DNA of 64,000 nt. It comes from Kangiella sp. Lineage in GTDB: Bacteria > Pseudomonadota > Gammaproteobacteria > Enterobacterales > Kangiellaceae. A model generated the notes under the pieces. It made no database searches, had not been told where the DNA came from, and saw nothing but the letters and a program-made list of their open reading frames with translations. Of this stretch, positions 28,597 to 59,087 are shown piece by piece (position 1 is the stretch's first letter; every line of letters begins with the position of its first letter). The translations under genes were made by a program, and so were the position numbers. The stretch lies in the NCBI RefSeq assembly GCF_014762745.1, contig NZ_JABURJ010000091.1, forward strand, positions 62,001-126,000. Direction: 5' to 3'.

Positions 28597-29918
28597 TAAT
28601 CAAGCTCACTTAAAAAGTTATCGTCAGCTGCTCTGATCTGCACTTCGCAAACAATCCCCTCTTTCTCAAGTAACTCAAGAATAGGATTGTAAATATCCTT
28701 GGTCATAGGTAGTACCAGTCCTTTACGAGCAATCTTGCCATCCGCGATCAATTGACACGCAATGGCTGCTGGATAGCCAACCGTTTTGGACATTGCAGAA
28801 TAACCACCGTCCTGACCAAACTCCTGCAAGGTTGAAGCGATGTGGTAACGGCTACCATCTGCTTTTTCAATTTCAAACTTATGCTGAAGCAGAACCATAT
28901 CAACCTGCCCCTTTTGATAACCGAGCTTCTGAATTAACAGATTGCAGAAGGCATCAATAGGGCCAGCAAATTCGCCGACTTGCTGCTCAGAGAAACAACC
29001 CAGCCACTCCAACCCTTGCCATGCACTATCAGATAACTGCGCTTTAAGAGCCTCAAGGCTATCCGCACCATTCAGTTGTACAATATAGTCTTTCCAAATC
29101 ATGTCCTGCATTGACACATCGGAATCCGCATCAAGCAAATTCAAATCCTTGGCTGCCTGGATAATTTCACAGAAGCCTGAATAACGGAAAGTTCCTCGAA
29201 TGATGTTCTGCGCTTCAGGAATACCATAAATTTCCTGATAGCCGGTTGAATCACGGTTCGGATAACCCTCAAGATCCAGGTCGTTAGCCTGCAACGGTTT
29301 GGCCCACTTCAGAAGCTCTTTAGCAACGACACGTTCAACTTTACCGTGGTGCAAAAATAAAGCGTCATTAAGTAGTGCCAATAAAACCCCTTTGGGGGCC
29401 CAGGAAAACTTATAACCAAGCGGGTTATCATTATCCTTTGGTGAAGGAAGACCACCACACCAGGATACAAAGCTGATCACTTTCTCATTATTGGCATGAG
29501 CCTGGTCGATAATCTTCATGGCACTAAGATGGTCAATGCCGGGATCGAGACCAATTTCGTTGAGGATAGTAACGCCCGCATCCAGTGCTTGCTGTTTTAA
29601 CTCGCGCATCGCAGGTGATTCATAACTTGCCGTTACCATATTCTTTTTTTGCGCTATTGCGGCTTTAGCAATGACCGGATGCAAGGTGGCCGGAACCAGA
29701 CTGACAACCATGTCGTGCTCAGCAATCACAGGTTCGATTTGGGTCTGGTCGGTAACGTCTGCCTGTAACGCTTTAACGCCGGGAAATTTATTCGCCAACG
29801 CCTGAGCTTCATCATATATATGACTGACTACTGTCACCGAGTTGTCCGAGCGACGCAGCAAATATTCAACTAAAGGTTCGGCAACAAACCCAGCGCCGAA
29901 AACTAAAAACTTTGCCAT
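28593..29918 (-). CDS. Saccharopine dehydrogenase-family oxidoreductase
   Basis: 441 residues. The NAD(P)-binding GAGFVAEPLVEYLLRR lies at the N-terminus. Later motifs are VSLVPATLHPVIAKAAI, NEIGLDPGIDHLSAM, SWCGGLPSPKDNDNPLGYKFSW and the C-terminal TVGYPAAIACQLIADGKI. The pattern is that of the glutamate-forming saccharopine dehydrogenase (LYS9-like). In bacteria this can serve lysine catabolism or an unknown amino-acid reaction; no partner lysine-ketoglutarate reductase is adjacent. The M14 carboxypeptidase gene lies four bases upstream in the same direction. The stop codons of this gene and the S9-like gene overlap tail to tail. Confidence 0.85.
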   Translation of the reverse strand: MAKFLVFGAGFVAEPLVEYLLRRSDNSVTVVSHIYDEAQALANKFPGVKALQADVTDQTQIEPVIAEHDMVVSLVPATLHPVIAKAAIAQKKNMVTASYESPAMRELKQQALDAGVTILNEIGLDPGIDHLSAMKIIDQAHANNEKVISFVSWCGGLPSPKDNDNPLGYKFSWAPKGVLLALLNDALFLHHGKVERVVAKELLKWAKPLQANDLDLEGYPNRDSTGYQEIYGIPEAQNIIRGTFRYSGFCEIIQAAKDLNLLDADSDVSMQDMIWKDYIVQLNGADSLEALKAQLSDSAWQGLEWLGCFSEQQVGEFAGPIDAFCNLLIQKLGYQKGQVDMVLLQHKFEIEKADGSRYHIASTLQEFGQDGGYSAMSKTVGYPAAIACQLIADGKIARKGLVLPMTKDIYNPILELLEKEGIVCEVQIRAADDNFLSELDY

Positions 29919-47399: not shown

Positions 47400-48494
47400 C
47401 TACACATTAAACAAATCTTTATAAGCTCTAAAACGCAGGAAGTGATCACACAGCACTAGGGCCGCCATCGCTTCAACAATCGGTACCGCTCTGGGCAACA
47501 CACAAGGGTCATGGCGCCCTCGTCCATGAAACACCGTTTCTTCACCTTCCAAGTTAACCGTTTCCTGCTCTTTTATAATGGTTGGCGTTGGTTTAAAGGC
47601 TACTCTAAAGACAATCGGCATGCCATTGGAAATACCACCCAATACACCACCTGAATTATTGGTCCGAGTTTTGACTGCGCCTTCTTCATTAATGAAGACA
47701 TCATTATGGGTTGTGCCACTCAGCAAAGTCCCGGCAAAACCAGAACCGATTTCAAAAGCTTTTGAGGCGTTAATCGCCAGCATGGCTTTAGCCAAATCAG
47801 CTTCTAACTTATCAAACACCGGCTCTCCCAAACCTACTGGCACAGATTTGATTCGGCACTCAACAATACCACCCAGCGAGTCACCATTTTTTCGAGCCTG
47901 CTCAATCTTGGCAATCATCTGTTCGGCCAGCTTTAAATCAGGACAACGTACCGGAGTCTGCTCAATCAGGCTGGCATCCACCGCATCAGAATCAAGAGTC
48001 ATAGTTAAATCCTGAACACTTTTGACATACGCTACAATCTCAGTGCCTAGTGCTTGTTCCAGCACCTTTCGCGCAATAGCACCGGCTGCAACGTGCCCTG
48101 CTGTAATTCGCGCAGAACTACGTCCACCACCTGCCACATCACGTATGCCATATTTTTTCTGGTAGGTATAATCGGCGTGGCTGGGTCTAAAGATTGATTC
48201 AAGCTCTGAATAGTCTTTGCTGCGTTGATCCTGATTAGGAATTAATAAACTGATTGGCGTGCCGGTAGTGATGCCATTAACCACACCAGACATAATCTGC
48301 ACCTGATCCGCCTCATCGCGCCGCGTGGTAATTGAGCTCTGGCCTGGGCGACGACGATCAAGAAAAACTTGAATATCTTCCTCAGACAGTTTCAAGCCTG
48401 CTGGGCAGCCCTCAACTACAGCACCAATCGCCTTGCCATGAGACTCACCCCAATTGGTCACTCTGAATAAAGTTCCGAAACTATCGCCTGCCAT
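47400..48494 (-). CDS. aroC: AroC, chorismate synthase
   Basis: 364 residues. Catalyses the last step to chorismate, using reduced FMN. The signatures are [18 protein letters not shown] near the N-terminus, [19 protein letters not shown] (about residue 122) and the C-terminal [22 protein letters not shown]. It is the last gene of the trp-aro unit. The 62 bases between aroA and aroC show no clear terminator. Confidence 0.97.
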
Positions 48495-48556: not shown

Positions 48557-49855
48557 TCACTCTAATACTGGTTCAGTCACCATACCAATCTGCTCAAGAT
48601 ACTGCCAATAGTCTGGGAATGACTTTGCCACTGCTTCCGAGGATTCAACCGTCAGACCCTTTAACTTGATACCAATTAAAGCTAAGCTCATCGCCAAACG
48701 ATGATCATGGCAACTTGAAACCTTGTCTGCAGTAAGCTGTTTACCACCTCGAATGGTAATACTGGATTCATCGTACTCACAATCGGCACCAAGTTTCTTC
48801 AGCTGCTCACATAAGTCGACAATACGATTAGACTCTTTATAAGCTAAATGAGCAATGCTGGTTATACGAGTTTCGCCCTTAGCAAAACAAGCCAGAGCAG
48901 CCAAGGTTGGCACCACATCAGGCATATTACCCATGTCCACTTCGATGCCTTTTAAAGGTGAATCGTACTCAACTTTTAAATCATCCTGCATCAAGTAAAC
49001 TTTAGCGCCCATTCGCTCCAGAACTTGAGGAAATTTTGACTCGCCTTGCGGAGAGTCAAAGTGATAGTTATGAATAGTGCAACTCGATTCTGCCAGCAAG
49101 GCGGCTGCCAAAAAGTAACTACTACTCACCACATCACCGGCAACATGAATATCTTGCGCAGCTAAAGTTTGTTGACCGGGAATAAAAAACTCACGGCAAT
49201 TGATGCGCTTTACTTCGCCACCGAACAACTCAATTGCACGTAAAGTCAGCTCAACATAGCTCTCAGAAACCAGCTCAGAACTTAAATGTATTAAAGTATC
49301 TTTTTCCGCTCTCAGGCATGCAATTAATAACCCACTTAGAAATTGACTACTTCTAGAAGCGTCCAGTTCACATGAGCCGCCAGCAATTGGTCCTGAGACC
49401 TTAAGCGGCAAATAACCATTATCACTCTCTATGCTGACGCCCAGACCTTCAAGACTGGCAACACTTTCTTGCATCGGTCGCGACCGCATCTGCGGACTTC
49501 CAGTAATTGTGATGCTGTACCCTTCTGATGAATAAAATAAACCTGTCAGGGCCGTTATAAAGCGCGCCAAAGTACCACTATCATGGCAATCAATAACAAC
49601 GTCATCAGCTAACTCGAAGCTTTCAATGCCTTGAATCTCAACACTGGTTTGGTCAAGCCACTCAACCCCGGCACCTAACGCCTTAATAGCATTCAATGCA
49701 GCAAGTATATCGTCATTTCGAGGAATATTGCTCAGTCGAGTGGTTCCACTGCTGATAGCAGCCAGTACCACGTAACGGTTAGCCAAATATTTACTACCGG
49801 GCAACTTTAATTCGAAGGGCTTTATCGCACTTGAAATTATTATTCGATCAGTCAA
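48557..49855 (-). CDS. aroA: AroA, 3-phosphoshikimate 1-carboxyvinyltransferase (EPSP synthase), with altered N-terminal motif
   Basis: 432 residues. Catalytic residues are largely in place: Lys22 and Arg27 in the N-terminal motif, RSRPMQ, SRSSQFLSGLL, the Asp in NMPDVVPTLAALA, YKESNRI, DHRLAMSLAL and FPDYW. The N-terminal motif reads GSKYLANR instead of GSKSxSNR, so Tyr replaces the Ser that contacts the shikimate-3-phosphate phosphate in E. coli EPSP synthase (Ser23). This is notable but the rest argues for a working enzyme. It follows yfcL by 26 bases. Confidence 0.92.
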   Translation of the reverse strand: MTDRIIISSAIKPFELKLPGSKYLANRYVVLAAISSGTTRLSNIPRNDDILAALNAIKALGAGVEWLDQTSVEIQGIESFELADDVVIDCHDSGTLARFITALTGLFYSSEGYSITITGSPQMRSRPMQESVASLEGLGVSIESDNGYLPLKVSGPIAGGSCELDASRSSQFLSGLLIACLRAEKDTLIHLSSELVSESYVELTLRAIELFGGEVKRINCREFFIPGQQTLAAQDIHVAGDVVSSSYFLAAALLAESSCTIHNYHFDSPQGESKFPQVLERMGAKVYLMQDDLKVEYDSPLKGIEVDMGNMPDVVPTLAALACFAKGETRITSIAHLAYKESNRIVDLCEQLKKLGADCEYDESSITIRGGKQLTADKVSSCHDHRLAMSLALIGIKLKGLTVESSEAVAKSFPDYWQYLEQIGMVTEPVLE

Positions 49856-49881: not shown

Positions 49882-50130
49882 TTAATCTTGAGGTTGCAGC
49901 TCATCCAGCAGTTCAGATAACAGCTCAACATCACGATCAGCCAAACCATCCGCCTCTACAGCGTCTTCAACAAATAGTGCAAATTCAGCAAACCATTCAT
50001 CGTCAGATAAATCATCGGCAGGTATCAAATCCACCATCGGAATCAGATACCCAACTAAAAACAATTTCTCTTCTTCAACCTGCTGTTCCATTTCCAGCAG
50101 TTGCTGTTTGACTGTTTCTGCTATCGACAT
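49882..50130 (-). CDS. yfcL: YfcL-family small acidic protein
   Basis: About 82 residues, strongly acidic. The pattern (EEKLFLVGYLIPMVDL ... DDEWFAEFALFVEDAVEADGLADRDVELLSELLDEL) matches the YfcL family, which in E. coli and others sits next to aroC. Function unknown. The ATG at 50130 with AAAAAGG upstream lies inside the last codons of trpA, so the two genes overlap by 56 bases in different frames. A TTG further up is less likely. Confidence 0.75.
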   Translation of the reverse strand: MSIAETVKQQLLEMEQQVEEEKLFLVGYLIPMVDLIPADDLSDDEWFAEFALFVEDAVEADGLADRDVELLSELLDELQPQD

Positions 50131-50980
50131 AGTGTGAGCCTTTTTCAATTGATTCGGTCATGTTCAATTCATGACGCGCATTATGTGCCGTATTAGACAT
50201 AGTCTGGGCATATTCTGCCACTAAATCTAACATTTTATCCGGCGTATTATAATGCTCATTGATCAAGTTAACTATGGCTGAACCGGTAATAATTCCATCC
50301 ACACCAGCCTGAGCTGCCTTTAACACATGCTCAGGCCTGGAAATACCAAAGCCCTGCACTAACGGCGGCGCTCCTAACTGCTTTAAGCTTTCAATTAAAT
50401 CAGTTCCTGTTTCCTGCTGATTGTTATCAGCTCCGGTAATCCCTTTGCGGCTTAACACATAGGTATAGCCCTGGCTATTTTCAGCAACCAGTTTCAGACT
50501 GGCAGGGCTCGCATCAGGAGGTGCAATATACACTGTATCGATACCCTTAGATTGCGCAGATCCGGAAAATAAGTCACGCTCCTCTACCGGACAATCAGCA
50601 ATCAGTACCGAATCAATGCCTGCTTTTTGGGCATCATGATAAAACTGCTCAATGCCGGGAGCAAAGACCAGATTGGCATAAGTCAAAATCCCTATGGGTA
50701 AATCAGGGTATTTAGCGCGAATTTTAGCAACCAGAGCAAAACCTTTCTGTACACTGAAGCCATGAGCTAAAGGTCTTAGACTGGCAGTCTGAATCACTGG
50801 CCCATCGGCTACCGGATCGGAAAAGGCAAAACCCAGCTCCAGTGCATCAGCGCCACTCCCAACCAGTCTATCAATGAGTTGTAACGACAATTCTTCTGTA
50901 GGATCACCCAGCAGCACAAATGGAATATAAGCCAATTGATTGGAATCTTTGAGTCGTGCAAATAATTGTTGGTAACGCAT
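50075..50980 (-). CDS. trpA: TrpA, tryptophan synthase alpha chain, with C-terminal extension
   Basis: 301 residues; the usual length is about 268. The catalytic Glu is in ALELGFAFSDPVADGPVIQ (about residue 48), the Asp in VLIADCPVEE, and phosphate-binding GFGISRPEHV and GIITGSAIV lie further on. About 30 residues beyond the normal end (NMTESIEKGSHYVDSRNSQT and so on) form a Ser/Thr/Gly-rich tail that overlaps yfcL in another frame. GAGAG precedes the ATG. Confidence 0.95.
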   Translation of the reverse strand: MRYQQLFARLKDSNQLAYIPFVLLGDPTEELSLQLIDRLVGSGADALELGFAFSDPVADGPVIQTASLRPLAHGFSVQKGFALVAKIRAKYPDLPIGILTYANLVFAPGIEQFYHDAQKAGIDSVLIADCPVEERDLFSGSAQSKGIDTVYIAPPDASPASLKLVAENSQGYTYVLSRKGITGADNNQQETGTDLIESLKQLGAPPLVQGFGISRPEHVLKAAQAGVDGIITGSAIVNLINEHYNTPDKMLDLVAEYAQTMSNTAHNARHELNMTESIEKGSHYVDSRNSQTATAGNGTAG

Positions 50981-51009: not shown

Positions 51010-52221
51010 TTAAACAGTCTCTTTCAGGAGACTCATGACATGAGCTAAATCTTTATCGCCGCGTCCGGACAGGTTGACCAGAATATTCAGTGGTTCACTG
51101 GATTCTGCAGCTAACTTTTTGGCATATGCCAATGCATGCGATGATTCAAGTGCAGGAATAATTCCCTCGGTTTTTGATAACTCCTGAAATGCCTCTAAGG
51201 CCTCTTCATCGGTCACCGAAACATATTCAGCACGACCGGCAGTCATTAAGTGGACATGCTCAGGTCCAATACCTGGATAATCGAGACCGGCAGAGACTGA
51301 ATGCGACTCTTGAACCTGCCCTTCGCCGTCCTGTAGTACATAAGTTCTTGAGCCATGCAAAATGCCCTCACGTCCTTTTAATAAAGTCGCGCCATGGGCT
51401 TTGGTATCGAGCCCCTTGCCAGCTGGCTCAACACCAATTAATCGAACATCCTCATCTTTAATGAAATCTGCGAAAATACCAATCGCATTAGAGCCTCCGC
51501 CGACACAGGCCACAACAGCATCAGGCAACTTACCAATTAACTGCTTCATTTGCTGCTTGGCTTCTTCACCAATGATTTTCTGGAAAGTTCGCACCATTTT
51601 TGGAAACGGTGCTGGACCAGCTACTGTACCCAACAAATAGTGAGTGCTTTCGTAGCTCGATGCCCAATCCCGCAAAGCTTCATTGATGGCATCTTTTAAG
51701 CTGGCACTACCATTGTCTACAGGGATGACTTCTGCCCCCATCAACTGCATCCTGAAAACGTTAGGAGCCTGGCGGTCGCAATCCTTTTTGCCCATATAAA
51801 TTGTCGCTTTTAAACCCAGTAAGGCACAAGCCAGTGCTGTCGCCACACCATGTTGACCAGCACCGGTTTCCGCAATGATGCGATGCTTACCCATTTTCTT
51901 GGCTAATAAAGCCTGAGCCAGAACCTGATTGGTTTTATGTGCACCGCCATGCAACAAATCTTCACGCTTGAGGAATATTCGCGACTGATTAATGCGTGCG
52001 TAAGATGTGCACTCGGTCACCGGCGTTGGGCGTCCTGCATACTCCTTGAGTAAACGGCTCAGCTCAGTTTGAAACTCATCATCAAGCAATGATGCCTCGA
52101 ATGCCCGATCAAGTTGCTGCAATGCTGGCATTAATAACTGTGGGACAAACTGTCCGCCATATTGACCAATATAAGCACCATCAAACTCGAAGTTAGTAGG
52201 TGAGTTAACTTTTTGATTCAT
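51010..52221 (-). CDS. trpB: TrpB, tryptophan synthase beta chain
   Basis: 403 residues, PLP enzyme. The PLP lysine is in [18 protein letters not shown] (about residue 93), the substrate loop is [15 protein letters not shown], and the phosphate-binding motif is [12 protein letters not shown] (about 240). The start overlaps the trpCF stop as ATGA with GGAGG upstream, so translation is coupled. Confidence 0.98.
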
Positions 52222-53678
52222 GATGAGATACCTCCAACAGCAACTCGGGTTAGATTACTTCCTAATACTGGTGCTGTAGATTTTGAATGATAACGTCCTG
52301 ACTGTGGCCGACAATGACTAAAAAACTCTTCAAGCAAAGCTTCGCTCTTTATTCCTGGACTAGACTCAACTGAGCTGGATAAATCTACTTTGACTACACC
52401 CAGCTTTTTGAGCTGTTGAATGTTATCTGCACTGACCCCACCTGCTATACGAAGCTTTGTCGCACGAAGGTCTGAGTCCAACTGGCTAAGTAGCGACCAG
52501 TCGAAAGTGACACCGGTACCGCCCCGCTGACTTTGTGCTTTATTAGTCACTTCAGTATCCAGCAGCACCTCATCAAAAGTTTCGAGCAGAGCCTTCAATT
52601 CTGAGGTAAGATTTTCCACTGATAGCTGTTCTCCAACGTGGAAAACTTTTGACACCTTAACGGAGGGCAATTGTTGCTTAATCTCTTGAGCAAGCTGTAT
52701 CGTTTCGTCACCATGCAATTGCACAATTTGCAACTTATAGTCTTGAGCAGAAGCTACAACCTCATTAATCGATTGGTCTTGGAAAACACCAACCAGAGGC
52801 TTAGTTGAACTAATCGCTTTATGGGTAACAAAACGCTTTGAGTTGGGCGCAAAAATAAGACCCACTGAGCTGACAGGAGAAGTTTGCAGAAAGTCGCAAT
52901 CAGACTGTTGCGTAACACCACACACTTTAATATCGCCATACACCAGTTGCCGAGCTGCTAACTCCAGGTTAACTTCCTTCATAAGACTGGAACCGACCAG
53001 GCAGGCATCTGAAAACTGCGAAAGCTCTAATACATCTTGATGGGTATTGATACCGGACTCAGTAATAACTAATCGGTCGGCCGGTACTTTTTGTACGAGT
53101 GCTTTGGTGTGCTCAAAACTGGTCGACAGGTCTTTTAAGTTGCGATTATTAATGCCAATAATTTTAGCATCCAACTTAATGGCTCGCTCAAGCTCTACTT
53201 CGGTATGTACTTCGGTCAGCACATCCATATTTAAAGCCTCGGCCTGCTCCTCACAAACTTTATAATCTCTATCGTTAAGAACCGACAGCATTAACAGTAC
53301 TGCATCAGCTCCAAAGTGACGAGCCTGGCGAATCTGTTTTGGTGATAAAATAAAGTCTTTGCACAATAACGGCTTATCAGTAAGCTCTCTTGCTTTCTGC
53401 AGGTTGGAAAAACTGCCACGAAAAAAGCGTTCTTCAGTTAACACCGAAATAGCATCTGCATATTGATCATAAACAGGAACAATGTCATCTAAATCAAACT
53501 CAGCGCGAATCAGCCCTTTGGAGGGCGACGCTTTTTTGCACTCCATGATAAACCCATAATGAGGCTTACTGAGCGCATCAAAAAAGCTTCGTTGACTTGC
53601 CTCTAATTCGGTATAGTCAGGCGTATTACCAATGACATTACGCTTATGTTCGAGGATGGTTTCTAGTACATTAAGCAT
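52218..53678 (-). CDS. trpCF: TrpCF, fused indole-3-glycerol-phosphate synthase / phosphoribosylanthranilate isomerase
   Basis: About 486 residues. TrpC occupies residues 1-250: [42 protein letters not shown] and CLVGSSLM. TrpF occupies residues 255-460: [50 protein letters not shown] and VDLSSSVE. The fusion is as in E. coli. A Ser/Arg-rich tail of about 25 residues ends the chain. ATG at 53678 has AAGGA eight bases before it; an ATG at 53687 sits directly against that site. It overlaps the end of trpD. Confidence 0.96.
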
Positions 53679-54678
53679 GGGAAGCATCCTTAATCATTTG
53701 TAACTGCTGATAGGCTCGGCCACTCTTCAATAAATCTTTAGCAAGCTGTGTTGCTGCTTCAAAATCATCCGCAAGATTATTCAGAACCAATAAGGCCCCA
53801 CAATTTACAGCCACCATATCAATATGCGCATCACTGCCCTGGCCTTTCAGCAATTGCTTGGCAGCAAGAACATTATCATCAACACTGCTTGCCTGAATGC
53901 TGGCAATGCTGTGTCGTTCAATGCCAAAATCTTCTGGCGAAAGAGTAAGCTCCTCAATGACACCATTATTGAGCGAAACGGCAAAGGTGCTGTCATGCAC
54001 CGCGATTTCATCCAAACCTGAGCCATGCACCACCAGAGCTTTTTCTGCACCAAGAATTTTTAGGATCTCAGCAAAAGGACGACAATACTTCTTATCATAA
54101 ACCCCAAGTAACTGGACTTCAGGTAACGCTGGGTTTGCCAATGGCCCAATCAGGTTAAAGATAGTCCGTGTTTTAAGTGACTGCCGAATTGGCATTACAT
54201 GTTTAACGCCCGGATGATAGTCTGGCGCGAACAAAAATGAAAAGTTCACTTCATCTAAAAGCTGCTTGCTCTTTTCTGGACTGACATGAATATTCACACC
54301 AAGCTGCTCCATTAAGTCTGCAGAGCCACACTTTGATGAAACCGACCGATTACCGTGCTTCACTATTTTGATACCAGCAGTCGCCGCTAACAAGCTGACA
54401 ATGGTTGAAACATTAATAGTATTCAAACCATCACCGCCAGTTCCACAGCAATCACTTACCGAATAATCATGACTCGGAAACCTCACTGCTTCTTGGCGCA
54501 ACGCGTAAGCAGCGCCTGCAATTTCCTCAACTGACTCACCTTTGGTTTTTAATGCTGCCAACATGGCTGCAACCACAGGAGCTTCGACCTGACCTTGCAA
54601 AACAGCCTGGAACGATTCGGTTGCCTGCGAATAATTCAAGCTTTCGCCTTGATAAATGGATTCAAGCAACTGCATCAT
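53671..54678 (-). CDS. trpD: TrpD, anthranilate phosphoribosyltransferase
   Basis: About 335 residues. Phosphoribosyl pyrophosphate loop CCGTGGDGLNTINVST, KHGNRSVSSKCGSADLME and the hinge region VMPIRQSLKTRTIFNLIGPLANP are clear. The protein is not fused to trpG. The ATG at 54678 (or the next codon) has AAGGAGG upstream, inside the end of trpG; a longer start would lie within trpG. Confidence 0.96.
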   Translation of the reverse strand: MMQLLESIYQGESLNYSQATESFQAVLQGQVEAPVVAAMLAALKTKGESVEEIAGAAYALRQEAVRFPSHDYSVSDCCGTGGDGLNTINVSTIVSLLAATAGIKIVKHGNRSVSSKCGSADLMEQLGVNIHVSPEKSKQLLDEVNFSFLFAPDYHPGVKHVMPIRQSLKTRTIFNLIGPLANPALPEVQLLGVYDKKYCRPFAEILKILGAEKALVVHGSGLDEIAVHDSTFAVSLNNGVIEELTLSPEDFGIERHSIASIQASSVDDNVLAAKQLLKGQGSDAHIDMVAVNCGALLVLNNLADDFEAATQLAKDLLKSGRAYQQLQMIKDASHA

Positions 54679-55282
54679 GACTAGCCTCCTTGGCAGCTTT
54701 ACCCGAGTGCCTTTTAACAATATTTATGAAGTTACGCAGCAACTTATAACCAGCGAAACTCATAATGCTTTCAGGGTGAAACTGAACACCGAAGATTGGC
54801 AACTTACTGTGTTGAACCGCCATCACTTCACTCTGTTCTGACTCGGCTGTGATTAGTAGTGATTCAGGTACAGTTGTGGCGACCAGAGAGTGATAACGAG
54901 CTACCGCAATACAATCTGTGATATCAGAGAACAGTCCTGAACTTTTATTTAATTTAAGCAGCGAGACTTTTCCATGCACTACTTGCTGTGCTTTCTCAAC
55001 CACTCCACCAAAAGCTTCAACTATAACTTGATGTCCTAAACAAACACCTAAGATTGGCTTTATGTTTTGAAAGTCCTGTAGCAGCTTCACACAGCAACCT
55101 GCATCTGATGGCTTGCCTGGGCCAGGCGAAAGCACAATACAATCTGCTTTATTGGCTAAATTAGAAACATAGCTATACTCAGCATCATTACGAACAACGC
55201 TGACTTCAAATCCAAGCAACTGCAATTCATAGTCGAGGTTGTAAATGAAGGAGTCGAAGTTATCGATCAATAATGCTTTCAT
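54662..55282 (-). CDS. trpG: TrpG, anthranilate synthase glutamine amidotransferase
   Basis: About 206 residues. The catalytic Cys is in ILGVCLGHQVIVEAFGG and the His-Glu pair in GVQFHPESIMS. Start ATG at 55282 with GGAGG upstream overlaps the trpE stop as ATGA. It is stand-alone and supplies ammonia to TrpE. Paralogue PabA is possible but the position inside the trp cluster decides. Confidence 0.96.
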   Translation of the reverse strand: MKALLIDNFDSFIYNLDYELQLLGFEVSVVRNDAEYSYVSNLANKADCIVLSPGPGKPSDAGCCVKLLQDFQNIKPILGVCLGHQVIVEAFGGVVEKAQQVVHGKVSLLKLNKSSGLFSDITDCIAVARYHSLVATTVPESLLITAESEQSEVMAVQHSKLPIFGVQFHPESIMSFAGYKLLRNFINIVKRHSGKAAKEASHDAVA

Positions 55283-56871
55283 GCTGCATCCTCCTTCAAA
55301 CTCTGCTGCACAAGAAGGCAAGCATTAAGCACCGCTCTAGCTTTATGGAATGTTTCATTGGCTTCCAGCTCTGGCACCGAGTCATACACAATCCCAGCTC
55401 CTGCCGAAACATGAGCTATACCATTAGACACTTCCGCAGAGCGAATGATAATAGCGCTGTCAAACTCCTGATTGGCATTGTAGATACTGACAGCCCCACC
55501 ATAATAACCGCGCGGCTTTTGCTCTAATTGACGAATGATTTCGACCGCTTTGATTTTTGGTGCGCCCGTTAAGGTTCCCATATTGGCGCAGGCTCGGTAG
55601 GCATGCATTGGATTAACATCATCGCGCAGTTCACCAATAACTTCTGAAACCATATGCATCACATTGGAGTACTTTACGATACGTTTCAACTGTGTGACCT
55701 GGCGACTTCCTGCCTTAACAACCTTTGCTAAATCATTACGGGCCAAGTCGACCAGCATCATATGCTCCGCCCCTTCCTTTTCATCACTGATAAGTTCAAA
55801 TTCAGTTTTTGCGTCCAGCTCAAAGTTAATGGCACCGTTAGAGGCAATAGCACGCTTACGCGTTCCAGCAATGGGGTAAAGGGTTACTTTGTTAGTATCA
55901 AAAACTTTTAAGGCACTTTCAGGGCTCGAGCCAAATAACTGACTGTCATCAAAGTTAATGAAGTACATATATGGCCCAGGGTTAGACTTTCTCAGCACTT
56001 GGTAGGCATTAAAGGCATCATCACAATCAGTCGAAAATGTTCTCGACAACACCACCTGGAAAGCATCGCCTTCAATGATATGTTGCTTAACTTTATTCAC
56101 ATTGTCGGCAAACTGTTTATCACTGACGTCCAACTGGAAATCACTGCTCTGCAATGGACTAAATGTGGTATTAGCTGATGTTGCCGTTAAAGACGGTGCT
56201 TTTGATGAAGACTCCAACTTTGATTCTATCGAGTCTATGGCTACGCCTAGTCGAACAGTATTACCAGCATTGCCACCAAAACCTTTAACAATAATCTTAG
56301 CGGACTGTGAGTCATCTTCTTGAATGACTAACTGGTCAGCAAGATAAAATCTAAAGTCAGGTGTTGTCTTGTTAAGTTCAGGCAAAGACTCATACTGATC
56401 CACAAGGTCAAAACTCATGGCACCAATTAAACAGGAACTGACATTATCGACTTTTTGCTCACATTTGATCTGCTCGGTTATCAAAGTCAGTACATCTGAA
56501 ATAGTTGGCTGAGTCAGACGTTGGTTTTCATTGAGCTCACTGCCACCATTTGTTTTTTCGAGTGTATAAGTGATAGTCTCTTTCGATGCTTGCTGGGAAA
56601 AACCAGCTAGAGCTTCATCAGCTTTTGCAAGTTCTGCTATAAAGCTTTTCCCATTATCGTTTAAGCTTTTGATGGTTACAGTGCCATCCAACCCTTCTAT
56701 AATCGCTGCCGCTGAAACCATGCTAATACTACGCTTACTCTTCTGAGTGCCAGGCTCTGCCGTCTCCAACAGTGCGGTATGAGCCAAGTGACCATTCTCA
56801 GTTAAAAGACCAAACACTTCGCAGGGCAATAAAGACAACGGTAGCTTTTTGGTTAGCGTATTAACTTGCAT
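55279..56871 (-). CDS. trpE: TrpE, anthranilate synthase component I
   Basis: 530 residues. The N-terminal regulatory region has LLET at 34-37, equivalent to the LLES motif of tryptophan feedback binding in other TrpE proteins. The chorismate-binding domain has NPGPYMYFINFDDSQLFGSSPE, LYPIAGTRKRA, MMLVDLARNDLAKV and GTLTGAPKIKAVEII. Start overlaps the end of aroF by 11 bases. Confidence 0.95.
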   Translation of the reverse strand: MQVNTLTKKLPLSLLPCEVFGLLTENGHLAHTALLETAEPGTQKSKRSISMVSAAAIIEGLDGTVTIKSLNDNGKSFIAELAKADEALAGFSQQASKETITYTLEKTNGGSELNENQRLTQPTISDVLTLITEQIKCEQKVDNVSSCLIGAMSFDLVDQYESLPELNKTTPDFRFYLADQLVIQEDDSQSAKIIVKGFGGNAGNTVRLGVAIDSIESKLESSSKAPSLTATSANTTFSPLQSSDFQLDVSDKQFADNVNKVKQHIIEGDAFQVVLSRTFSTDCDDAFNAYQVLRKSNPGPYMYFINFDDSQLFGSSPESALKVFDTNKVTLYPIAGTRKRAIASNGAINFELDAKTEFELISDEKEGAEHMMLVDLARNDLAKVVKAGSRQVTQLKRIVKYSNVMHMVSEVIGELRDDVNPMHAYRACANMGTLTGAPKIKAVEIIRQLEQKPRGYYGGAVSIYNANQEFDSAIIIRSAEVSNGIAHVSAGAGIVYDSVPELEANETFHKARAVLNACLLVQQSLKEDAA

Positions 56872-57895
56872 ACGCCACCTCTGCTAGTGTTCTGCCACTT
56901 GCTGTAACAAATGGAGCAAGCTGCTGCATCAAGTTATGAAAGTCTTGTGGCGATAATGCCTGAGCGGCATCAGAAACGGACTCTTTAGGGCTTCTATGAC
57001 ATTCAATAATGACACCGTCAGCTCCACAGGCTACTGCTGCTTTAGCCATTGGGGAGACCAATGTACGAACTCCAGTTCCATGGGATGGATCGACAATTAC
57101 AGGAAGGTGGCTACGCTCTTTGATGAAGGCTACGGCATTCAAATCCAGCGTATTGCGAGTGGCGGTTTCAAAAGTCCTGATGCCACGCTCGCAAATCATT
57201 ACATTAGGGTTGCCGCTAGCAACAATATATTCGGCGGCAAGCAATAACTCTTCAATTGTTGCTGATAATCCACGCTTGAGTAATACGGGCTTCTTGGTTT
57301 CACCCACTGCTTTAAGCAGCGTGTAATTTTGCATATTCCTAGCACCAATTTGAATCGCAGAAATATAACGCGCCACATCATCCAAATCTTTAACGTCCAT
57401 CAGCTCGGTAATGGTGTCTAAACCGGTTTCCCTGCCAACGTTATGCATAATCTTTAGACCTTCAACGCCCAGCCCCTGAAAGGAATAAGGACTGGTGCGT
57501 GGTTTAAAGGCACCACCGCGTAGCACTGTAGCTCCAGCCTGCTTAACGTAACGCGCAGTTTCTAACAGTTGCTCCTCACTCTCAATGGCGCACGGCCCTG
57601 CCATGATCGTAAATTGCTCAGAACCCACCGGCGTATTGCCAACCTGCACGACAGTATCCTGTGCATAAATTTCGCGGCTAACCAACTTGTATTTGCTTAG
57701 TACAGGTTTGACTAAATCAACCTGTGGCAAGTTTTCCAGGTGAAGAGACTCAAGCACGCGCTCATCTCCTAGCGCACCAATTACAGTGCGCTCAACACCT
57801 GGCATGTGTAAAGGTTTTAAACCTGCCGCATCAATTTTTTGTAGGATTTCTTGCGCATCCTGCTCAGACGCATCAGGGCGTAGAATAATAATCAT
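56861..57895 (-). CDS. aroF: 3-deoxy-7-phosphoheptulonate (DAHP) synthase, type I-beta with N-terminal regulatory domain
   Basis: 344 residues. An N-terminal ferredoxin-like domain of about 70 residues ([17 protein letters not shown] ... [10 protein letters not shown]) precedes the TIM-barrel catalytic domain: [37 protein letters not shown]-like loop replaced by [23 protein letters not shown] and the metal ligands in PSHGTGVR and IECHR. This is the I-beta subtype (COG2876), in which the extra domain can mediate feedback inhibition. It is the first gene behind the two trp attenuators. GAGGAAC precedes the ATG. Confidence 0.93.
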
Positions 57896-57981
57896 TGTGT
57901 GTTCCTCATTTTAAAATTAAATCTCAATAAACCTTGTGAAGTGCTTGCCCTAATTGGCAAGCAGAAATAAATTGCAGACAT

Positions 57982-58009
57982 AAAAAAAGCCCGCACAACG
58001 GCGGGCTTT
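57982..58009 (-). terminator. Second (promoter-distal) trp attenuator terminator
   Basis: On the minus strand AAAGCCCGC (58009-58001), a 6-base loop, GCGGGCTTT (57994-57986) and a T run form an intrinsic terminator about 90 bases before aroF. Its 5' arm can pair instead with GGCGGG at 58038-58033. An 8-bp inner stem (58010-58017 with 58023-58030) extends that alternative structure into a strong antiterminator. Confidence 0.92.
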
Positions 58010-58038
58010 ATCGTCTTTCCTCAAGACAATACCCCGCC

Positions 58039-58098
58039 CTACCGGAACCACCACCAGTTAGCCATTAGGGAAATGTCAGTTTTCAAATGTATTGTCAT
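58039..58098 (-). CDS. trpL: Second trp leader peptide
   Basis: An open reading frame of 19 codons reads MTIHLKTDISLMANWWWFR, with three consecutive Trp codons three codons before the stop. CCCTA just upstream of the Trp codons (58070-58066) can pair with TAGGG at the stop codon (58041-58037), which would form the early 1:2 hairpin. The antiterminator and terminator follow at 57982-58038. The ribosome-binding site is weak. Confidence 0.88.
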   Translation of the reverse strand: MTIHLKTDISLMANWWWFR

Positions 58099-58166
58099 AG
58101 TTAAATTCTCAATCTGTGTTTAAGTTTTGTGGCCTTAGCTCAATCAATTCCAATTCTGTCAGGCAT

Positions 58167-58193
58167 AAAAAAAGCCCGCTTTTGCGGGCTTTT
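58167..58193 (-). terminator. First (promoter-proximal) trp attenuator terminator
   Basis: On the minus strand AAAAGCCCGC (58193-58184), loop AAAA, GCGGGCTTTT (58179-58170) and further T residues form a canonical terminator. Its 5' arm can pair with GCGGGCCTTTT at 58238-58228 in the antiterminator form. Confidence 0.93.
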
Positions 58194-58241
58194 AAAATCT
58201 TGATGTTATAAATATCTTACAAACAACAAAAGGCCCGCTAC

Positions 58242-58289
58242 TTAAGTAACGTGCCACCACCAGATGTTTTGTATGATATTCATATTCAT
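58242..58289 (-). CDS. trpL: First trp leader peptide
   Basis: An open reading frame of 15 codons reads MNMNIIQNIWWWHVT, with three consecutive Trp codons near its end. The RNA around the last codons forms a 1:2 hairpin, GGCACGTTAC with GTAGCGGGCC and loop TTAA, with one mismatch. The 3' arm of this hairpin overlaps the antiterminator segment at 58228-58238. Ribosome stalling at the Trp codons would therefore free it to block the terminator at 58167-58193. This is textbook trp attenuation. Confidence 0.9.
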   Translation of the reverse strand: MNMNIIQNIWWWHVT

Positions 58290-58338
58290 GCCGTTCAATC
58301 TAAATGATATTGTTTACAGGGTCAACTATTTTTGTCTA

Positions 58339-58376: not shown

Positions 58377-59087
58377 TTATTTTCCTTTAGCGAACTTTTC
58401 AACCTGACTCTCGGTCTTAAGCCTGGACTTCGGTAGCTGTGATATCAGTCTTTCAATATTAGAAGTCAGTGACCAGATCTCAAGTTTAGCCGCGGGGTCA
58501 TGCCACTCCGCCACTGTAAGGCCTTCTGCAAAAGAATCTAGATAAGCTACACGATTGCCTAGCTTAGTTGGAAAGTCATCTATCGCCAGCTCCTGCTTAG
58601 CGTTTGCGACAACATTATCTGCAGAATTGGTACGTACGCGATAACGATTCCAACAGATTCTCGCTTCCAGATTAGGATTCAGTTGCTTGGCTTCATCCAC
58701 TATTTCCGCAAGATGCTTGGTGGACCAAACCTCTATTGGTGATGGGCTCAAAGGGATAAGTGCTAGATCAGATAGCAGAACCACTGCTCTGGTTAGGTTG
58801 GTGATTCTTGGATGGCCGTCTATCAGAATATAATCGTATAGGTCAGTATTTTCTCGAACCTGTTTTTGTAGGTGAGCAAGATTCTTAGCAGAAATAACAT
58901 CCATATTTTCAATGAGATACTGCTCATCACGTACCCGGTACCAGGTTTCTAGAGAACTTTGCGGATGATCAGTATCAATCATCAAAACTTTACTTTTATC
59001 GGATAAGGTGGAGGCGATATTGGCACATAGAGTGGTCTTGCCTGCCCCACCTTTCATCTGAACAAAACTAATGACTTTTGCGCGCAC
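58377..59087 (-). CDS. Orphan ParA/MinD-type ATPase
   Basis: 236 residues starting at GTG (CGGGGA upstream). Deviant Walker A KGGAGKTTLC (about residue 12), MIDTDHPQSS and YILIDGHPRI place it in the ParA superfamily. There is no ParB-type partner beside it. It lies between the trp leader and pilY1, on the same strand as both. A role in positioning a membrane or pilus complex would fit some orphan ParA proteins, but nothing in the sequence shows it. Confidence 0.82.
   Translation of the reverse strand: MRAKVISFVQMKGGAGKTTLCANIASTLSDKSKVLMIDTDHPQSSLETWYRVRDEQYLIENMDVISAKNLAHLQKQVRENTDLYDYILIDGHPRITNLTRAVVLLSDLALIPLSPSPIEVWSTKHLAEIVDEAKQLNPNLEARICWNRYRVRTNSADNVVANAKQELAIDDFPTKLGNRVAYLDSFAEGLTVAEWHDPAAKLEIWSLTSNIERLISQLPKSRLKTESQVEKFAKGK

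Follow-up and report, generated by a model that had tools for sequence, protein, structure and literature searches.

We found two complete leader-peptide/antiterminator/terminator modules, each built around a run of Trp codons, in series ahead of a DAHP synthase-trpEGD(CF)BA operon of a marine Kangiella sp. The pair extends from 58289 to 57981 on the minus strand of the 64-kb stretch of DNA that we analyzed as a whole, referred to here as the window (Table 1). Judged from its sequence, this is an old and conserved form of double Trp attenuation. We consider it likely that each of the two modules functions as a ribosome-mediated Trp attenuator and that they act serially on one transcript, the second probably supplying the layer of control that TrpR gives elsewhere. 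An initial annotation of this DNA had described two complete serial attenuators ahead of one operon, and both leader open reading frames (ORFs), both hairpins and both T runs were indeed recovered on the minus strand. That annotation had missed the restriction of the tandem pair to operons that start with the DAHP synthase gene, the absence of TrpR from the genomes that carry the pair, and the probably leaderless state of the first leader suggested by the sequence upstream of it.

Table 1. Coordinates of the double leader and of the genes behind it, in window positions
Feature	Position	Strand	Remarks
Candidate sigma-70-type promoter	58297..58325	-	TTGACC (58325-58320), 17 nt, TAGATT (58302-58297)
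Leader peptide 1, MNMNIIQNIWWWHVT-stop	58242..58289	-	Trp codons 58262-58254; predicted ORF
Module 1 segment 2 core GCGGGC	58233..58238	-	antiterminator with segment 3; also part of the 1:2 hairpin
Module 1 terminator (segments 3 and 4), AAAAGCCCGC-AAAA-GCGGGCTTTT and T run	58167..58193	-	
Leader peptide 2, MTIHLKTDISLMANWWWFR-stop	58039..58098	-	Trp codons 58056-58048; predicted ORF
Module 2 antiterminator hairpin, GGCGGG...CCCGCC with TATTGTCTT/AAGACGATA stem	58000..58038	-	
Module 2 terminator (segments 3 and 4), AAAGCCCGC...GCGGGCTTT and T run	57981..58009	-	
Ibeta-type DAHP synthase, first structural gene of the operon	56861..57895	-	NF006421, TIGR01361
trpE	55279..56871	-	
trpG	54662..55321	-	TIGR00566 subfamily; the ORF as listed possibly starts too early
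trpD	53671..54720	-	
trpC-trpF fusion	52218..53687	-	NF006945
trpB	51010..52221	-	
trpA	50075..50980	-	
EPSP synthase aroA	48557-49855	-	downstream of trpA
Chorismate synthase aroC	47400-48494	-	downstream of trpA and aroA

Each module contains a short, translatable predicted ORF with clustered Trp codons, downstream of which lie a hairpin (GCCCGC/GCGGGC) and a run of T. In leader 1 of Kangiella the first Trp is codon 10, as in E. coli trpL, and the ATG always lies 9 codons ahead of it. The TAGATT -10 box of the promoter-like element ends 7 nt before this ATG, and a ParA-like gene upstream of the element ends at 58377. At the other end of the operon, trpA, aroA and aroC lie on one strand, so a transcript of the trp genes may also cover much of the shikimate end.

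A detector that searched both strands of the window for a leader ORF with clustered Trp codons and a terminator 25-170 nt downstream returned three modules, namely, the trp pair and one weak match at 29384-29460. The latter, on the minus strand, consists of a short ORF (VWWSSFTKG) and then a GC-rich hairpin with a T run and probably arose by chance. In 300 shuffles of 20 Kangiella upstream regions, the detector reported no module 298 times, one module twice and two modules in no case. For 145 upstream regions taken as reverse complements, the respective counts were 142, 3 and 0. The detector under-calls (loci L142 and L144 were scored as tandem by eye), and its errors include a false third module in L132 and a mis-set start in L116. 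The Rfam signal in the window was weak, since the Trp_leader model (RF00513) scored 25.3 bits for module 1 and 23.6 bits for module 2 on the minus strand, neither reaching the gathering cut-off of 41 bits, and the best regional match (26.1 bits) lay on the plus strand over terminator 2. Among 20 related loci scanned, 5 had one module above the cut-off.

Both modules were present in all 20 Kangiella genomes examined. Within the order, tandem modules were located upstream of the Ibeta DAHP synthase gene in 42 of the 52 complete upstream regions (40 called by the detector and two by eye). These loci span five families (f1, f4, f13, f14 and f15) and ten genera, and trpE follows downstream on the same strand in every one of the 42. 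In the other upstream regions, we observed a second leader reduced to a single Trp (G034 and G029), one attenuator plus a Trp-rich ORF without a terminator (G166 and G178), or a single or decayed module (5/52: a single module in G023, G027 and G028, a broken leader in G031, and G068); in G061, no trpE was seen beside the DAHP synthase gene. Further loci were left unscored, three of them because of contig ends (G024 at a contig edge, G026 and G051 cut), as well as L181 with its 147 nt. The search for doubled leaders in relatives that the initial annotation had proposed thus turned out in its favor: loss of one module in all relatives, which it had named as a refutation, is contradicted by these counts, and the spread of the pair over five families argues, as it had suspected, against a recent simple duplication. 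That the pair is kept in so many related bacteria suggests a job beyond that of a single switch.

Other trp operons carried one module at most. We took the stretch directly before trpE, which may differ from the actual operon start, from 80 of the 107 genomes in the order sample that have trpE and no match to this DAHP synthase (79 of the 80 with a long enough stretch). One module was detected in 65 of the 79, none in 14 and two in 0, in line with the view that known trp operons have a single module. All 10 named Vibrionaceae loci likewise had one module, and most of them contain, by eye, a palindrome that presumably resembles the TrpR operator. In the class-wide sample, a limit of 1e-110 on the E value left 3 of 274 genomes with this DAHP synthase. 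One of the three is the window's own, and no module was found upstream of the gene in the two others (L225 and L226). On a DAHP synthase tree built by a quick method, the tandem label requires 8 or more changes, of which starred branches force 4, and tandem loci stand on deep branches (f13 and f4). The pair may go back to a single origin followed by losses or to repeated origins.

Folding of the two window modules, the check proposed in the initial annotation, gave a clear result for module 1 when compared to its own shuffles (z of -5.35, 0/200) and a moderate one only for module 2 (z of -1.66, 13/200). The pairing of segment 2 with segment 3 averaged -15.0 kcal/mol in module 1 and -13.2 kcal/mol in module 2, compared to -7.0 and -7.8 kcal/mol with shuffled linkers, and it was unmatched by any of 50 shuffles in 32 of 40 loci for module 1 and 16 of 40 for module 2. 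When a ribosome was placed on the second Trp codon, segment 3 was sequestered in 40/40 (module 1) and 38/40 (module 2) loci; with the ribosome at the stop codon, it was free in 34/40 and 37/40 loci, respectively. Full switching, i.e., the expected structures in both the stalled and the stop state, was predicted for module 1 in 34 and for module 2 in 35 of 40 species, compared to 78/400 and 107/400 shuffled-linker controls. Each module is thus predicted to have a mutually exclusive antiterminator (2:3) and terminator (3:4), and in these folding models the position of the ribosome would decide between them. Under a 14-nt footprint rule, a ribosome at the stop codon would mask the core of segment 2 in 32/39 copies of module 1 and 27/40 of module 2, so that the classical position of the stop codon is not universal.

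In the window, the antiterminator of the stalled state had an energy of -16.1 kcal/mol versus -21.4 kcal/mol for the complete fold in module 1, and -22.8 versus -23.2 kcal/mol in module 2. These differences suggest that the thresholds of the two modules may differ, the energies being model values from one species. We also considered a scheme in which module 1 is off and module 2 is on when untranslated. This held in the window (0.00 and 1.00); across loci without a ribosome, segment 3 was sequestered in 32/40 module 1 and 33/40 module 2 loci, so that the contrast is not general and the scheme was rejected.

Sequence variation within the helices was limited. In eight loci, segment 3 of module 1 carries CCCGT, and the matching A was present in segment 4 in 7 and in segment 2 in 4 of these; L117 and L137 have the segment 2 A without a matching T, which speaks against strict covariation. 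Module 2 keeps the C and the G in all 40 copies, including those from genomes with CCCGT in module 1. Within Kangiella, pairing was intact in 100% of cells for the module 1 1:2 helix, where one double change occurs, and in 94.5% of terminator cells; the antiterminator core is nearly invariant. Since 36 of 500 shuffles matched the covariation observed over both helices (1:2 and terminator), covariation within the genus is weak. Codons 1-9 of leader 1 were found to pair with the stretch after segment 2 more strongly than shuffles do, with a mean z of -2.4 and negative values in 20/20 cases, the mean z for leader 2 being -0.33. A covarying leader-ORF pairing in module 1 was tried and rejected, as the swap test was weak (own partner better in 13/20 cases for module 1 and 8/20 for module 2).

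To score promoters at the leaders, we used a rule that asks for a -35 box with at least 5/6 matches, a -10 box with at least 3/6 matches including A2 and T6, a spacing of 16-18, and 5-8 nt between the end of the -10 box and a start codon in frame. Leader 1 conformed to this rule in 20/20 Kangiella and in 33 of 42 tandem loci overall (L120 could not be scored, its leader lying at the edge of its 700-nt stretch), and leader 2 of tandem loci never did. The rule was also satisfied in both loci with a one-Trp second leader, and in 1 of 82 single-module leaders (1/15 before DAHP synthase, 0/2 of the loci with an attenuator and an ORF, and 0/65 before trpE); by chance, it was satisfied in 71 of 10,000 shuffles for one fixed ATG. 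Outside the family of Kangiella, examples came from four families (f4, f13, f14 and f15, the last with 1/5 loci). In all 20 Kangiella loci, the -10 box ends 6 or 7 nt before the leader 1 ATG. Because -10 boxes usually end 6-8 nt ahead of the transcription start, the RNA should begin at this ATG, and leader 1 is probably leaderless.

Consensus scans agreed with this placement. A score of at least 9 was reached ahead of leader 1 in 23 of 40 loci, between the modules in 1 of 40, and in 13% of shuffles. An independent promoter between the modules, which had been named as a finding that would speak against serial action, thus received no support from these scans in either the window or the 40 loci. 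A Shine-Dalgarno duplex of -2.4 kcal/mol or better preceded leader 2 in 14 of 20 Kangiella loci and leader 1 in 5 of 20 (one leader 1 start being mis-set), a contrast that is suggestive only, since the bases ahead of leader 1 possibly are not transcribed.

We searched for the repressor gene with PF01371 (TrpR) and obtained no match over the cut-off in any of the 42 tandem genomes, the window's own among them, while the E. coli control was detected; a match of 25.1 bits in G017 remained below the threshold (cut-off of 27). In contrast, G068 and four named Vibrionaceae, the five single-module genomes with this operon that were tested outside the family, all had TrpR. Within the family, the members with a single module (G023, G027 and G028) or a decayed one (G031) also lack TrpR. 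Of the 79 trpE upstream stretches, those from genomes with TrpR had one module in 22 cases and none in 11. We therefore rejected the idea that TrpR loss alone explains the second attenuator, since 43 of the 46 trpE upstream stretches from TrpR-less genomes of other families had one module (the other 3 had none), and so did TrpR-less members of the family. Two modules go with the combination of a DAHP-synthase-first operon and no TrpR, a correlation drawn from few independent lineages.

Besides the Ibeta DAHP synthase of the trp operon, the window's genome encodes an Ialpha-like enzyme (contig C68) and a class II enzyme; the remaining PF00793 match, on contig C101, is a KDO8P synthase. Given these two further kinds, the Ibeta enzyme of the operon is probably a Trp-dedicated isozyme, for which control by Trp only would be sensible. 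The class II gene appears twice in the assembly, on C71 and at the end of C109, probably because of an assembly overlap.

From the computed anatomy, conservation and switching geometry of the modules, together with the missing TrpR gene, we infer the following course of events. Transcription would start at or beside the leader 1 ATG, and the first ribosome would load on the leaderless 5' AUG. At low levels of charged Trp-tRNA, this ribosome would stall on the leader 1 Trp codons, segments 2 and 3 would pair, and the polymerase would pass terminator 1; if Trp-tRNA is ample, the ribosome would reach the leader 1 stop codon, segment 3 would be freed, and terminator 1 would form. A polymerase that has passed terminator 1 would then meet leader 2, where internal initiation would allow the test to be repeated with a separate antiterminator and terminator. 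The full DAHP synthase-trp operon would be transcribed only if both tests report a shortage, so that the read-through fractions should multiply. Without TrpR, the second attenuator probably supplies the control layer that the repressor gives elsewhere. A more far-reaching version, which we put forward tentatively and hold to be rather doubtful, is that two-tier Trp control has been rebuilt purely from RNA, with the leaderless first attenuator replacing the repressor layer and the tiers reporting different signals. If so, tier 1 would report charged Trp-tRNA plus the capacity for leaderless initiation and tier 2 charged Trp-tRNA plus ordinary initiation, rather than the same signal twice.

By analogy with S. 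meliloti, module 1 might instead mainly make a short leaderless mRNA or small RNA at ample Trp, with the RNA or peptide acting elsewhere and module 2 controlling most of the operon. Leader 1 is probably leaderless, like S. meliloti trpL (PMC7298713). Of three Kangiella clades, two show signs of constraint on codons 2-9 of leader 1 (pN/pS of 0.43, 0.40 and 0.99), with leader 2 apparently unconstrained (1.39, 1.41 and 0.80). However, these pN/pS values come from tiny samples, and the constraint on leader 1 may stem from the RNA pairing of its codons 1-9 (mean z of -2.4), so that we regard such a division of labor as unlikely.

Somewhat less likely still is that only one module is active, with redundancy or decay of the other copy. 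The second module has indeed been lost or weakened in some relatives (G034, G029, G027, G028 and G023), and the leader of G031 is broken, but the retention of both modules throughout Kangiella and of the switching geometry in both modules across 40 species argues for two active attenuators. We see hardly any room for the remaining proposal, that leader 2 senses Phe or Arg besides Trp, the first gene making the common aromatic precursor. It derives from the Phe and Arg codons after the Trp run in the window's leader 2, which the initial annotation had pointed out; the residues at this place are not conserved across Kangiella (FR, FQ, SC, FD, IC, IH, NW and others), and the Ialpha and class II DAHP synthases elsewhere in the genome make it probable that the enzyme of the operon serves Trp. 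Two serial Trp attenuators thus remain our preferred reading.

The modules resemble E. coli-type trpL (RF00513) in having a Trp-run leader peptide and competing antiterminator and terminator structures on one transcript ahead of the trp genes; Kangiella differs in its two serial modules, the probably leaderless leader 1, the lack of TrpR and the DAHP synthase gene in first place. The trp genes of E. coli, too, are under two layers of Trp control, TrpR and a single attenuator, but the first layer there is a DNA-binding repressor, whereas Kangiella lacks a gene for TrpR and has another RNA layer in its place. In S. meliloti, the trpL RNA starts at the ATG, and the operon is under attenuation only, with no transcription repression (PMC7298713). 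It thus shares with Kangiella the leaderless start (probable in the latter) and attenuation without repression, but this alphaproteobacterium has one module, ahead of trpE(G). Its rnTrpL RNA and peTrpL peptide are documented as trans-acting in the same source (PMC7298713). Two attenuators in one leader are known from Salmonella mgtCBR, ahead of an Mg transport/virulence operon; these sense different signals, ATP and proline (PMC3641672), whereas both Kangiella leaders have runs of the same codon. A near-leaderless leader peptide, with its start codon one nucleotide from the transcription start, is described for Corynebacterium glutamicum ilvBNC, where a single attenuator responds to branched-chain amino acids (PMC11857589).

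TrpR is predicted to control aroF2 in Vibrionales (PMC5343134), and the aromatic supraoperon of Streptococcus pneumoniae is said to be one that "displays two attenuator units" (PMC1173090). All three elements, attenuators as such, leader peptides on leaderless RNA and attenuators in tandem, have been described before (PMC3641672, PMC7298713, PMC11857589). In the open literature searched, we found no paper on tandem trp leader-peptide attenuators, though an earlier mention is possible, and no case, conserved across families, of two complete serial leader-peptide attenuators for the same amino acid in which the first leader is leaderless and a repressor is missing.

With tandem attenuators for the same amino acid kept in five families, nature itself offers a way to ask what the doubling of a regulator is good for, be it for deeper or steeper repression, as a stand-in for a missing repressor, or for reading two signals. 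The probably leaderless first leader provides a handle on how gammaproteobacteria couple leaderless translation to attenuation. Given the small size of the loci, the predictions, namely, two 3' ends, one 5' end at the ATG and multiplying repression factors, are directly testable.

Several loci deviated from the common layout. In L130 and L134 (G166 and G178, family f7), the attenuator is followed by a second Trp-rich ORF (MLTIKVKSWFMWWLLPIYAG and MLTTKVKSWFIWWLQPIYAG, respectively), which occupies roughly the stretch from 120 to 35 nt ahead of the DAHP synthase gene; this ORF, which stops just short of the gene, may instead work at the level of translation. In L141 (G061, family f23), the DAHP synthase gene is preceded by a terminator and, ahead of that, by a Tyr/Phe-rich leader ORF (YFYFFGWF) containing a single Trp, a composition that would suit a response to several aromatic amino acids. 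In L120, L121 and L122 (G030, G027 and G028), the last terminator is separated from the DAHP synthase gene by copies of a short repeat (around GTCCAGGGATGGACTGTATG); L121 and L122 retain only one attenuator. Leader 1 of L016 (G010) ends in HVTTVAG-stop in place of the conserved HVT-stop, so that the usual stop codon is lost and the RNA stem is kept. In L144 (G075, family f13), leader 2 reads WWWHRRW and has no stop codon ahead of the terminator, so that a translating ribosome would run into the terminator.
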